Virus record (IMG/VR): IMGVR_UViG_3300032242_001824
Span: 1-46,342 of that record
DNA length: 46,342 bases
Source: a virus
Reading direction: 5' to 3' (one strand)
The notes beneath the pieces are model-generated. The model saw nothing but the letters and a program-made list of their open reading frames with translations. It had not been told where the DNA came from and ran no database searches. How positions within the stretch are numbered: position 1 is the first letter of the stretch; each line of letters starts with the position of its first letter. The position numbers and the translations under genes are program-made. Positions 13,124 through 17,993 of this stretch are shown here, in pieces.

Positions 13124-14620
13124 TTATACTTGTCTCACTAATTTCTTTAGGATATTTTGAAGTGTTGGATCATCCGTGCGAACCATGACGGAACTGTCCA
13201 TACTGATTGCTGGCGGAGGTGTACCACCACCAGCATTGACAGTAGATGAATTATCTACCATAACAGACGAGGATTTGTTTTGGTCTAGGTTCATGTCGTT
13301 GTTCTGACTGATAGCTGATTGTACACGACTGCCAGTTTCAGCGGGAGCAGCAGGCATTGGTGAAGCTGTTGCTACCGGTGTTGTTGTAGAATCTCCACCC
13401 CCATCGGAACTAACTGAAGAATCTACCCTTCTAGGATCACTTGCGGCAGCCGATGCTGAACCTCTACCACCTCCAGCAGTAGAAGGTGTTACACCTGCTG
13501 GTAGAGCTGTTGCAGTTGTCTTTTTATATACAAGTTTTCCAGTCTCATCAATACCTATTGCGCCAGAGGAACGTTCTTCTTTTGTCGTTCCTGTTTTTTC
13601 ATCCCAACCAATTTTCTTTAAGTAATCTTTTTGTAAATCGGAATCTTTCCAAGGTAAAAGTGATTTCTCATTAGACTCTCTAGCCGCAAGAAGATTATTT
13701 TTCTTTGCTTGTACAGCATTTTCATCCGATGCTTCAGTAGCAGCCATGATAGATTCTGCCATACCGCCGTCAACAGCACCTGCGTTTATAATACCTTTCG
13801 TTGTTGCTTCTGGATTAGTATCAAATTTAAGTAAGGCAAGTAATGCTGCTATTGAAGCACCAGCAAAAACCAATCCTACACCTAAAGGTGAAATTAAAAA
13901 CCCAGCAAGACGAGTTAATGCACTGATTGCATTTTTACCCAAATAACCAAGAAAATCCATTAAAGGTGACAACATCTCTTTCCACTTAGCTAGGGATTCT
14001 AATATTGGTTTTATAAAATCTCCAATCATGTTTGCTATCGCATCAAAGATACCACCCTTTTTTTCTTTTGCAGGTGATGCAGTTTGTGTACCACCACTCA
14101 TGCCAGTGATTGCTTCAACTAATTCTTTGTGCCATTTTTCACGTTCACGATCTTTACTTACAGCAAGATTCTTTTCAACTTCACGTTGGTCTTTTTGATC
14201 TGCTATGTTACTCTTAATCAAATTGTAAATACGAGCCATTACGTCAGCAAGGCCGTCATTCTTTTTCATCTTACCTTGAGCACCATCAGAGACTTTAGTA
14301 ACTAATGGATTAACTTTCATAGCCTCCATAGAACTAGCACGAACCCTTGCACCAGTGAAGTGTGCAATATCTTCTTCTCTGCGACCTGTCAGTTTACCTA
14401 CTGCATAAGCACCAAGTCTTCCACCAAATGCTTTACCAATATTCAATGGATCAAATTTCTCCTTCATTCGTGTGAATTTGGCTGTAGTCTTATCAGAGAT
14501 AGCAGATTTGATAGAACGACCTACGCCTTGACCTTGTATAATTCTATCAACCATTAACCTACCGAGACCGACATTCTTTAGTCGGTTCGCTCTCTGATAT
14601 GTCATTTTATCGCTTGCCAT
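13124..14620 (-). CDS. Tape-measure/baseplate-hub-like protein with hydrophobic segment
   Basis: A 498-residue protein. A basic N-terminal third contains an amphipathic Lys/Glu-rich segment (RIYNLIKSNIADQKDQREVE, then EREKWHKELVEAI). A hydrophobic stretch at about residues 228-265 (ISPLGVGLVFAGASIAALLA) follows, and the C-terminal half is low-complexity, rich in Ser, Thr, Ala and Gly, ending SSVMVDNSSTVNAGGG and a short helix. The coil and the VDN-rich C-terminus are shared with the gene just upstream, so the two look paralogous. Its place after gp26 and next to a transglycosylase gene suggests the T4 gp28/gp29 (hub/tape-measure) region. A membrane-interacting role at DNA ejection is inferred. 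Confidence 0.62.
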   Translation of the reverse strand: MASDKMTYQRANRLKNVGLGRLMVDRIIQGQGVGRSIKSAISDKTTAKFTRMKEKFDPLNIGKAFGGRLGAYAVGKLTGRREEDIAHFTGARVRASSMEAMKVNPLVTKVSDGAQGKMKKNDGLADVMARIYNLIKSNIADQKDQREVEKNLAVSKDREREKWHKELVEAITGMSGGTQTASPAKEKKGGIFDAIANMIGDFIKPILESLAKWKEMLSPLMDFLGYLGKNAISALTRLAGFLISPLGVGLVFAGASIAALLALLKFDTNPEATTKGIINAGAVDGGMAESIMAATEASDENAVQAKKNNLLAARESNEKSLLPWKDSDLQKDYLKKIGWDEKTGTTKEERSSGAIGIDETGKLVYKKTTATALPAGVTPSTAGGGRGSASAAASDPRRVDSSVSSDGGGDSTTTPVATASPMPAAPAETGSRVQSAISQNNDMNLDQNKSSSVMVDNSSTVNAGGGTPPPAISMDSSVMVRTDDPTLQNILKKLVRQV

Positions 14621-14621
14621 T

Positions 14622-16328
14622 TTATCCGCCTATTATTGTTGGTTTTTCTGAAGGTGTTGCAGTCTTAATCGTTTGTGGTGGTGAAGCATTCGGTGACACT
14701 ACTGTGGTCTTAGTGTTGTCAACCACAACATTGGTACCTTTGTTAGCACCTTTCAAATCTTTATTTTCAACTGAATCTGAATTTAATTTATTACCAACAT
14801 TATTTGGTTGTGATAAAATTTCAGAATATTTTTGTTGGTATTTACCAACTTTTTCAAATAAAACATCAATAACTTGTTGTACAGTTCTTGGTTTATTTTT
14901 ATCTGGTTTACCATCAACTTTATCATAGAATATGAAGTCGTTGGCCGCGGCTGCTTTAGGCATTATAGCTGAAGCATCCGCATTTTTATCACTACTGAAT
15001 AGTGTTCTGGCTCCACCAGCACCTAGAAAATGTGCGGCATAAATTGATGTTGCATCTACAGGTATTTTTGCTTTTGTTAAAATGGCTGCATTTTCTTTTA
15101 TGAATAGGGCACCAGCAATGGCATTTGCTTCTGCATCATTAGGTCCTTTTTTTAAAATTGGATATTTGCTTCCGTAGGTCTTCAACATTTGGTCCCAAGT
15201 ACCCGAAATGAATTGATAAAGTCCTTTCGCTGAACTTGTTTTTGCAGCGGCATTTGGATCAAATCCACTCTCTTGCTTAGCCATAGCATACATCAATGAT
15301 TTATCTACACCAACGGCAACAGATGCTTTATCAATTGCTGCTGCAACCGACTCGCTAGGCATCAATAATGCTCCGGCCGCCGCTGCACCTACACCAATTT
15401 TTGCTGCCGTTCCAACACCTTTTGGTACTGTAGGTAATTGTTTTGTAACAGATGGTGCCGCAGGAACCTCAGCAGCCGGTTTGGCAGTAGGAGCTTCTGC
15501 TGGTTTTGGTGCTGGCTTCGGTGCCTCAGCAGGTTTAGGTGCAGGTTTCGGTGCTTCTGCTGGTTTTGGTGCTGGCTTAGGTGCTTCTGTTGGTTTAGCC
15601 GCAGGTGCTGGTGCACCAGGCTTTGTAGGTTCTTGTTTTACAAACCTACCTTTTGTATCTCTTGCAGGCGGACCTTTTTTACCTTTTGGTGGTACAACTG
15701 GCTTCTCTTTAGCTTTCTTGATTGCCTTAATAAGCTCCTCATGTCTAGCTTTTTCTTTTTCGAAGTGTTCTTCTTCTCTGTTTTTGGTCAATTCGGAACG
15801 TAGCTTACGTTCATCATTATCTTGTTTGATGACTGCATAGATTTTTGCGCCAATGTTGGCCGCAGTATCGCCTGTACGCAGTTTAGGTTTACTTGAAGAA
15901 ACGGCATCAGCATAGAAGCCTGCGTTTACATTACCAACTTTCTTTGCTGTGTTTGGTGTTACTGCTGACGAACGCTTAGATAAACCTTTAGCAATATCTT
16001 TAGTATCTGTAGTTGTCTTTTTAGACATTATTTTAGCTACATTACCAACATTAGGCACTTTAGATTCATTAGTAATCTTATTTTGTTGCGCTTGTATTTT
16101 CTTTATCAATGGACCAAGAACATACTCTTTGTAACCAGGTTGTTTTGCTAGTTCACGCTGGCGTTTCAATATCTCCTGTTTTGACATTTTTTTACCGAGT
16201 GTAACCAACTTCTCAATTTGTTTTAAAGATAGTTCTCCACTACTCAATAATTCATTGATTTTATTTTCGGCGAACATCTTTTCAAATTCGCCGCTTTCCA
16301 TCATCTGATTAAATTTGGTGTCGTTCAT
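14622..16328 (-). CDS. Virion lytic transglycosylase, tape-measure-like
   Basis: A 568-residue protein. An N-terminal helical region is followed by a charged coil (GAKIYAVIKQDNDERKLRSE, then EKARHEELIKAIKKAKEK), a TonB-like Pro/Lys/Ala linker with repeats of AEAPKPAPKP, and a soluble lytic transglycosylase domain at about residues 330-460. That domain has QESGFDPNA, where Glu353 is the catalytic Glu, and AKGLYQFISGTWDQM, the SLT fold signature. The C-terminus KGTNVVVDNTKTTVVSPN matches the paralogue downstream. It would cut peptidoglycan during DNA injection. The start overlaps the preceding short frame (ATGA). The gp5 spike of this phage lacks a lysozyme domain, so this protein may supply that activity. 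The SLT call is strong; the tape-measure role is inferred. Confidence 0.85.
   Translation of the reverse strand: MNDTKFNQMMESGEFEKMFAENKINELLSSGELSLKQIEKLVTLGKKMSKQEILKRQRELAKQPGYKEYVLGPLIKKIQAQQNKITNESKVPNVGNVAKIMSKKTTTDTKDIAKGLSKRSSAVTPNTAKKVGNVNAGFYADAVSSSKPKLRTGDTAANIGAKIYAVIKQDNDERKLRSELTKNREEEHFEKEKARHEELIKAIKKAKEKPVVPPKGKKGPPARDTKGRFVKQEPTKPGAPAPAAKPTEAPKPAPKPAEAPKPAPKPAEAPKPAPKPAEAPTAKPAAEVPAAPSVTKQLPTVPKGVGTAAKIGVGAAAAGALLMPSESVAAAIDKASVAVGVDKSLMYAMAKQESGFDPNAAAKTSSAKGLYQFISGTWDQMLKTYGSKYPILKKGPNDAEANAIAGALFIKENAAILTKAKIPVDATSIYAAHFLGAGGARTLFSSDKNADASAIMPKAAAANDFIFYDKVDGKPDKNKPRTVQQVIDVLFEKVGKYQQKYSEILSQPNNVGNKLNSDSVENKDLKGANKGTNVVVDNTKTTVVSPNASPPQTIKTATPSEKPTIIGG
15498..15590 (-). 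repeat. Repeats encoding a Pro-Lys-Ala linker
   Basis: About three imperfect 30-bp units encode repeated AEAPKPAPKP in the transglycosylase protein. The extended, TonB-like composition suggests a stiff spacer between the coil and the enzyme domain. The same DNA creates long meaningless open frames on the opposite strand. Confidence 0.75.
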
Positions 16329-16567
16329 CTACGTTCCATGTTTTTCTGTTTTATCTTCTCATTTTCTTCTTCAATATATTGAGCAAGCATACTAACGTAA
16401 ATCTCACGCTCCCACGGCATCATATTTTCTAGCTCCGTCAAACTATACTTGTGATGCTGTATCAATGCAAAGTTGGTTGTATAATAATTCCTAAGAGTGT
16501 CGTGACGGAAGATTAACCGAAAAAATTCTCTAACCCTTCCACCTCTATCGTGTGGTGAAAACCACAC
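16325..16567 (-). CDS. Short downstream frame of gp26, probably read by -1 frameshift
   Basis: This open frame overlaps the 3' end of the gp26 gene by 55 nt and stands in the -1 frame relative to it. Its only upstream start is a GTG at 16567 without a convincing ribosome binding site. The encoded segment has YSLTELENMMPWEREIYVSM and a charged coiled tail (EEENEKIKQKNMERR); the PWER-type motif occurs in tail-assembly chaperone C-terminal parts. Reading through the T TTT TTC site at 16519-16525 would join it to gp26 as ...ENFF-RLIFRHDTL... The stop overlaps the next gene's ATG. It may instead be an independent small protein. Confidence 0.65.
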   Translation of the reverse strand: MWFSPHDRGGRVREFFRLIFRHDTLRNYYTTNFALIQHHKYSLTELENMMPWEREIYVSMLAQYIEEENEKIKQKNMERR

Positions 16568-17235
16568 TTACCACAGTCCATCTCAAGTGTCTTATTCAAC
16601 TTAGGTAGATTGCTGAAGAAATCTTCAATCTTTCCAAACTGTTCTTGATTCAGTGAGTCAATAAAATCAACCAACTCTTGGTGATCAACTTCATTTGCAT
16701 AATAGAATTGCTCACCATCATAGATGTTAACAATACTGCTGACAATCATTTCAAAAGCCATGTCGGTTGCAGTTTCAATTTCTTTTGACGCATCTAACAC
16801 GGAGAATTTTGGATAACTCAACTTGATACTGATAGTGTCAGTCAGTTGAATCTCATCTTTGATGTCATTATGGTCAACCTTAATATCAAGTAAGTTGAAC
16901 TTGGCTTCCATCAGATTGCCACACGGTTTCTCATCAACTGGGTTTTCACACTTATACTTGTTAGTAACGACTTCACCGACTGATCTTGCTCTTAATTGAA
17001 TGAAGTAATATTCAACGTCTACAATAGGAAGCGAATCAATATCTACATTCTCTGTCAAGGTACAGTTATGCAATACTTGTTTGATGTTCTTTTCCATGGT
17101 CTCTTTGTCATCGGATTCCATAGCCATCATTAGATTACGTTGTTCTTTCACTAAGAATGGACGAAAACGAATCTGTTTCTTAGACAGAGGTAAAGTCAAT
17201 TCGTATACTGGTGCATCAATTTTTGGTAAAGCCAT
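16513..17235 (-). CDS. 26: gp26-like baseplate hub assembly / tail chaperone protein
   Basis: A 240-residue protein (T4 gp26 is 208) beginning MALPKIDAPVYELTLPLSKK, with FRPFLVKEQRNLMMAMESDD, the hallmark of the T4 baseplate hub family (PF12322). A probable zinc site is made of YKCENPVDEKPCGN and, near the C-terminus, CGKCGFHH. It acts in assembly of the central baseplate hub. The gene ends in a slippery T TTT TTC site five codons before the region of its stop, where a -1 shift would extend it by about 65 residues. It lies in a minus-strand cluster with tail-tube-fold and head-completion genes. Confidence 0.85.
   Translation of the reverse strand: MALPKIDAPVYELTLPLSKKQIRFRPFLVKEQRNLMMAMESDDKETMEKNIKQVLHNCTLTENVDIDSLPIVDVEYYFIQLRARSVGEVVTNKYKCENPVDEKPCGNLMEAKFNLLDIKVDHNDIKDEIQLTDTISIKLSYPKFSVLDASKEIETATDMAFEMIVSSIVNIYDGEQFYYANEVDHQELVDFIDSLNQEQFGKIEDFFSNLPKLNKTLEMDCGKCGFHHTIEVEGLENFFG
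16519..16525 (-). other. Candidate programmed -1 frameshift site T TTT TTC
   Basis: On the minus strand the last gp26 codons read AAT TTT TTC GGT TAA, so the heptamer T TTT TTC is in the correct phase (X XXY YYZ) for tandem -1 slippage. The new frame is exactly the downstream 16325-16567 frame. A purine-rich, SD-like GGAAGGG ends 8 nt upstream, comparable to the stimulator of dnaX. No strong downstream hairpin is seen. Confidence 0.62.
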
Positions 17236-17264: not shown

Positions 17265-17993
17265 TTAATGTGTAAGTCCACCCTTAACTGCGTTTGCAAT
17301 ACCTTCAAAGTTTGGAGTTGAAGTATTCAATACTTGTTGTGAAGTATTAAGTCCTGGTAGATTTATCGAATTCGTCACATTGGAGAAGTCTGTCAGATTG
17401 GTCAAGCCACCATTCGAATTGAGAACTTGTGAAATACCAGCCTGTAGTAAGCTAGAACCAAGTTGCTGAATAGAGTTATTTTGCCAGTATCTGTATGCAA
17501 ACGTGACTGTTAATTTGTGGTGACCATCATTAGACCAATCTAGGTCTAGTTGATTAATAGAAGTGGGGAATGCATCAATCAGATTAATTGAGTATGTTAG
17601 TTTGTTGTCTACACTATATTGATTAACTGTCAAGGTAGAAATGTAATCGTTTCTGTAATTGAAATCGAATGACATAGTTGGATTAATATACTCCATCCAT
17701 GCGTCAAAGAAAATCTTTTCAGACATATCATCAGAGACAATGAAAGTCATGTCAGATTCATTATAGTTTGATTGATATGCGTGTTTTTCAAGCGGGTTTG
17801 AACCTATCTTTTGGTCAGCAGTTGCAAAAGTTCTGCTAGGTAATTGAGCAGACTCGCAGCGTAGTGAAAGATTTCTACTGGTGTTGAGGTAGACTAACAG
17901 AGGCAGCGGAGCAGGAATAGTAACATCAAACCTATTTGGTCGTGCTATGTCCTTCTTAAAAGAACCAAGGAAATCTGTAATGTTTGACGGCAT
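17265..17993 (-). CDS. Tail-tube-fold protein, gp54/gp19 family
   Basis: A 242-residue protein beginning MPSNITDFLGSFKKDIARPN and continuing with RFDVTIPAP, LSLRCESAQLPSRTF, FDAWMEYINP and VTFAYRYWQNNS. This pattern is the T4 gp19 tail-tube family (RxNxFxV, C-E-x-x-x-L-P, F-x-x-W, tailing Y-R-Y-W). In T4 the tube protein gp19 and the baseplate tube initiator gp54 share this fold. Being in the hub gene cluster next to gp26, and with gp48 encoded divergently, gp54 (baseplate-tube junction) is the better guess, but gp19 cannot be excluded. The last 70 residues are Asn/Ser-rich and probably flexible. Confidence 0.78.
   Translation of the reverse strand: MPSNITDFLGSFKKDIARPNRFDVTIPAPLPLLVYLNTSRNLSLRCESAQLPSRTFATADQKIGSNPLEKHAYQSNYNESDMTFIVSDDMSEKIFFDAWMEYINPTMSFDFNYRNDYISTLTVNQYSVDNKLTYSINLIDAFPTSINQLDLDWSNDGHHKLTVTFAYRYWQNNSIQQLGSSLLQAGISQVLNSNGGLTNLTDFSNVTNSINLPGLNTSQQVLNTSTPNFEGIANAVKGGLTH

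Follow-up and report, generated by a model that had tools for sequence, protein, structure and literature searches.

A conserved slippery heptamer at the gp26-gp51 junction of an uncultured phage lineage points to a long tail assembly chaperone made by -1 frameshifting

The window, by which we mean the whole stretch of 46,342 nucleotides analysed here (IMG/VR record IMGVR_UViG_3300032242_001824), carries on its minus strand a gene for a gp26-type protein, with a clear tail tube gene upstream and, downstream, the gene for a 568-aa SLT-domain protein, followed by that for a 498-aa protein with a TMP_2 match below the cut-off (Table 1). On this strand gp26 ends GTG GAA GGG TTA GAG AAT TTT TTC GGT TAA, and a second open reading frame, which spans 16567-16325 and lies exactly -1 to gp26, runs across this end to a stop at 16327-16325 that is overlapped by the ATG of the 568-aa gene (ATGA). 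The initial annotation had picked out the in-phase T TTT TTC at the end of gp26, the GGAAGGG 8 nt upstream of it, and a -1 frame with only one GTG upstream of the slip site and no clear ribosome binding site, all of which we could confirm in the window. When the window was scanned for in-frame X XXY YYZ heptamers in the last 60 nt of ORFs of at least 100 aa, with a -1 frame continuing for at least 30 codons past the stop, only this one emerged from 47 ORFs and 73 in-frame heptamers. No near-identical record of the window was found among sequenced phages. In the 568-aa protein, a Pro/Ala/Lys repeat linker (PKPAPKPAEAPKPAPK...) joins the N-terminal part to the lysozyme-like domain (window 15400-15630, minus strand).

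Table 1. Features around the end of gp26 in the window.
Feature	Position	Strand	Basis
gp26, short form (TAC-N analogue), 240 aa	16513..17235	-	Pfam and phrog profile matches, model fold
Slippery heptamer T TTT TTC, in gp26 phase (X XXY YYZ)	16519..16525 (16525-16519)	-	Sequence, conservation
SD-like element GGAAGGG, putative upstream stimulator, 8 nt before the heptamer	16534..16540	-	Anti-SD energy
-1 frame from slip site to gp51 stop, C-terminal extension (TAC-C analogue) of the predicted 303-aa fusion	16325..16525	-	phrog_634, phrog_150
GTG, sole start codon of the -1 frame before the slip site; probably not used	16565..16567	-	Not conserved
Next gene, 568 aa, SLT lysozyme-like domain	14622..16328	-	Profile matches
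498-aa protein, possible tape measure	13124..14620	-	Weak TMP_2 match (PF06791, 8e-4), below Pfam cut-off
gp19-type tail tube protein, upstream of gp26	17265..17993	-	phrog_45, 1.3e-38

Profile matches place gp26 and the fused product in the gp26/gp51 families of T4. The gp26 protein matches Pfam T4_baseplate (PF12322, 1.2e-60) and phrog_150 (2.9e-65), while the -1 frame, which carries the conserved pattern FFR...NYY.TNFALMQHHKYSLTELENM.PWER, matches phrog_634 (gp51, ‘baseplate hub assembly catalyst’, 1.2e-30) and also the C-terminal end of phrog_150, at positions 229-278. When the two are joined, the 303-aa fusion aligns to phrog_150 in one stretch, residues 1-286 to positions 5-278 of 282, with 262.6 bits against 221.5 for gp26 alone, and it aligns through the junction with the single-ORF gp51 of Erwinia phage Cronus (E 6e-16). 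T4 itself presents the same families: its gp51 (249 aa) consists of a gp26-like domain and the same C-terminal domain and covers phrog_150 13-280, whereas its gp26 (208 aa) covers only 14-235. In T4 and Aeromonas phage 25, however, as in Cronus, gp26 and gp51 are separate divergent genes, and in the first two they show neither overlap nor frameshift. To judge by the sequences compared, this pattern agrees with frameshifting in the majority of T4-like groups, the T4 group instead carrying one gene for the short form and another for the long.

The fold of gp26 was approached with an AlphaFold2 model built on a 64-sequence alignment (pLDDT 88.4). In VIA-align, the model matched 3fgx, 3klu and the HK97 tail assembly chaperone 2ob9, with Z scores of 7.6, 7.4 and 7.2 that cover only about residues 1-88 and lie below the 8 advised for the tool; the next entry scored 3.0. 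We take 3klu (YqbN) and 3fgx to be XkdN-type phage chaperones. That chaperone-type entries are the sole ones above Z 3 supports a chaperone fold for the model, a Z below 8 not being proof by itself. Foldseek alone gave no significant match for the gp26 model in the PDB (HK97 2ob9 at rank 26, E 6.1), and a sequence search of solved structures with the gp26 and gp51 profiles returned nothing. The link to the G/GT chaperones put forward in the initial annotation is favoured by the modelled fold. Tail assembly chaperone would be a better name for gp26 than baseplate hub part.

Conservation at the junction was considered at increasing distance from the window. All 80 relatives with about 70-89% gp26 identity have T TTT TTC and the same -1 relation between the frames, and wider scans gave 206 distinct junctions; the gp51 frame is always in -1 phase. 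At 69% gp26 identity or more, T TTT TTC is present in 55/55 distinct junctions, and the group best matched by the window has TTTTTTC in 64 and TTTTTTT in 3. The other T4-like junctions (n=125), from cyanophages, Pelagibacter HTVC008M, Methylophilales Melnitz, Vibrio PG216/KVP40-type, Stenotrophomonas Moby, Pseudomonas Astolliot, Sinorhizobium phiM12 and Ochrobactrum OC phages, comprise 110 with TTTTTTC, 14 with TTTTTTT and one scored as having none, so that 124 of the 125 keep T TTT TTC/T. As read from these alignments, the heptamer is conserved in the relatives far beyond chance. In Pelagibacter, Methylophilales, Sinorhizobium phiM12 and Ochrobactrum phages the heptamer is T TTT TTT and not T TTT TTC, and in Pelagibacter HTVC008M it stands directly before the TAA stop (L087:3519-3525). 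In L274 the heptamer had seemed to be lost, but this was set aside as a contig artefact: an earlier stop occurs in the contig, whose junction still reads TTTTTTT.

A run of T might also be kept solely by the Phe-Phe protein sequence, which is nearly invariant in gp26 and is read as FF in the -1 frame too, with no slippage involved. We regard this as improbable in the extreme, because the synonymous freedom at TTT goes unused and a third-position T is retained before it. The gp26 protein alone would permit interchange of TTC and TTT, and the other seven Phe columns of gp26 do mix the two in the codon alignment made for the window's group; the TTT of the heptamer is the sole column without synonymous variation (zero entropy) among 61 conserved multi-codon gp26 columns. 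The codon preceding the heptamer in the 55 close relatives is AAT, AGT, TCT or GGT, i.e. its third position is always T across changes between Asn, Ser and Gly. A constraint from the -1 frame on the bases of the heptamer, moreover, arises only if that frame is translated across them.

The exception is the Ackermannviridae, where 13 junctions keep the -1 overlap and have no XXXYYYZ heptamer. Relatives of the kinds that the initial annotation took to speak against a frameshift thus do exist, namely these and some cyanophages with an ATG after the slip site, but they do not weigh against the window's clade, since the heptamer is kept wherever the overlap was found outside the Ackermannviridae. 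The gp51-like frame that follows gp26 in -1 phase in Ackermannviridae of the CBA120 type carries a conserved ATTTTCATTTAATTTTTGAAATTGATTTA (L095:4220-4405; L257-L271), has no ATG before its conserved part and has no annotation in CBA120. Synechococcus phage S-WAM2 (L083:3531-3722) has both the gp51 frame and the slip site, and there too gp51 lacks an annotation.

Whether gp51 could be an ordinary separate gene, started from the GTG or by coupled re-initiation just past the gp26 stop, with the heptamer incidental, turns on the start codons of the -1 frame. Database entries do treat gp51 as a CDS of its own in S-PM2, P-SSM2, KVP40 and others, often with an ATG that overlaps the gp26 stop or directly follows it, and 21/55 close relatives have an ATG in the -1 frame before slip+45 nt. 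In the window, however, no ATG was found in the -1 frame before the conserved block; its GTG is not conserved, being missing in most relatives, and 48/55 close relatives have no start codon upstream of the slip site at all. In 21 of the 55 there is no ATG, GTG or TTG from the opening of the -1 frame to slip+45 nt, i.e. before the conserved NYY.TNF block, and in some relatives the frame opens only at the slip site. A separate gene would also leave the invariant T TTT TTC and the SD-like site before it unexplained, and we therefore consider this explanation very improbable. Separate initiation of gp51 is nevertheless possible in the 21 close relatives with an ATG near the slip site in the -1 frame and in the many cyanophages that have one. 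In the latter the ATG comes immediately downstream of an intact heptamer, as expected if a frameshifted fusion and a free gp51 domain were both made in such lineages. That both products are made is a rather unlikely account overall, and it cannot be general because the window has no such ATG before the conserved block.

In frameshift signals of the dnaX type, a slippery heptamer is preceded, at a distance of about 10 nt, by an SD-like stimulator. The window resembles them in both respects, with a GGAAGGG whose predicted anti-SD energy is -7.3 kcal/mol. A site that binds the anti-SD at -5 kcal/mol or better, about 8-10 nt upstream of the heptamer, is found in the spacer of 62/67 members of the window's group against 14/536 control positions elsewhere in gp26, and at the same threshold in 98/124 of the other T4-like set against 123/992 control positions. 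Within the SD-like stretch the Glu codon is GAG in 48/61, compared with 23% GAG elsewhere in gp26. From these comparisons we conclude that the anti-SD-binding site is under selection, and its position suggests a stimulator of slippage.

Unlike in the dnaX-type signal, a stimulatory stem-loop downstream was not found in the window's clade: RNAalifold gave no consensus hairpin (42-48 sequences, E 0), individual folds differ, and the best local hairpin downstream in the window reaches only -0.6 kcal/mol, so that a stem-loop was rejected as stimulator there. In S-PM2-like phages, a hairpin pairs 17-22 with 44-49 nt past the heptamer start and shows some covariation, which was seen in no other set; the S-PM2-like cyanophages L117, L104 and L109 have a long hairpin right after the slip site which is absent from the window's clade. 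In the clade with at least 69% identity, the SD-like site is present in 43/44 and a hairpin of -6 kcal/mol or better in 5/44, whereas in other T4-like sequences, mostly cyanophages, the figures are 81/103 and 66/103; what is counted here are related sequences, not independent events. Within groups, no trade-off between SD strength and hairpin strength was seen (Spearman about 0). The stimulator may have been exchanged between lineages, the window's clade relying on the upstream SD-like element alone and other T4-like phages usually having both, which we offer as a tentative suggestion short of an even chance. If true, the window's clade would have a natural SD-only -1 frameshift signal setting the chaperone ratio. 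An SD-like element without a downstream hairpin in this clade is possibly a new detail.

Given the conserved heptamer, phase and SD-like element, the lack of a conserved gp51 start, the match of the fusion to single-ORF gp51 and the favourable fold match of the gp26 model, the frameshift proposed in the initial annotation is very probably right: gp26 would be the short form of a tail assembly chaperone and gp26-gp51 the long form, made by a -1 frameshift like lambda G/GT. Most ribosomes would end at the gp26 stop and yield the 240-aa product. A minority would pause with the tail of the 16S rRNA on GGAAGGG while the Phe codons TTT and TTC of the heptamer occupy the P and A sites; a backward slip of both tRNA-Phe by one base would carry translation into the -1 frame and yield the 303-aa product with the gp51 domain. 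The predicted tryptic peptides of the window's proteins are CGFHHTIEVEGLENFFR for the fusion and CGFHHTIEVEGLENFFG for the C-terminus of short gp26; in Synechococcus phage S-PM2 or Prochlorococcus phage P-SSM2 the fusion peptide would end ...LQSFFR and that of short gp26 ...LQSFFA or ...LQSFFV. By analogy with lambda gpG/gpGT, short and long forms together would coat the tape measure protein, tail tube subunits being recruited through the gp51 domain.

In lambda, the slippery site of G/GT is G GGA AAG, whereas the window has T TTT TTC. Lambda G/GT and the conserved tail-gene frameshift (Xu, Hendrix & Duda 2004) have in common with the window a -1 slip close to where the short form ends, a C-terminal extension and a position downstream of a tail tube gene, but the link runs through the modelled fold, which resembles HK97 gp13, and not through sequence.

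Frameshifting is reportedly conserved in several T4-like groups, with T4 using genes 26 and 51, a result said to come from Vladimirov, Gautam & Davidson (Virology 2022, 566:9-15). The connection of T4-like gp26/gp51 to G/GT is accordingly right but had already been published (Vladimirov et al. 2022). PolyT slippery signals in the TAC-N genes of T4-like phages are mentioned in a passage of PMC12846349, and T4-like phages in which a short gene is accompanied by a longer, fused one in place of frameshifting in a passage of the PRFect article (PMC10885494), both citing Vladimirov, Gautam & Davidson 2022. The window has the same genes and the same idea of short and long products as the published TAC-N/TAC-NC pair (Vladimirov et al. 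2022); it differs in representing an uncultured lineage, whose gp26 reaches about 39% identity at most with the records of the phage collection searched.

The comparisons strongly support frameshifting as the source of the long tail chaperone in T4-like phages other than the T4 and Ackermannviridae groups, genes 26 and 51 of T4 being the separate-gene version of the frameshifted pair. On a practical matter, many records either list gp51 as a free-standing gene or omit it, where joining it to gp26 is due. The contrast between SD-only and SD-plus-hairpin signals would, in addition, offer a natural series for the study of what sets -1 frameshift rates.
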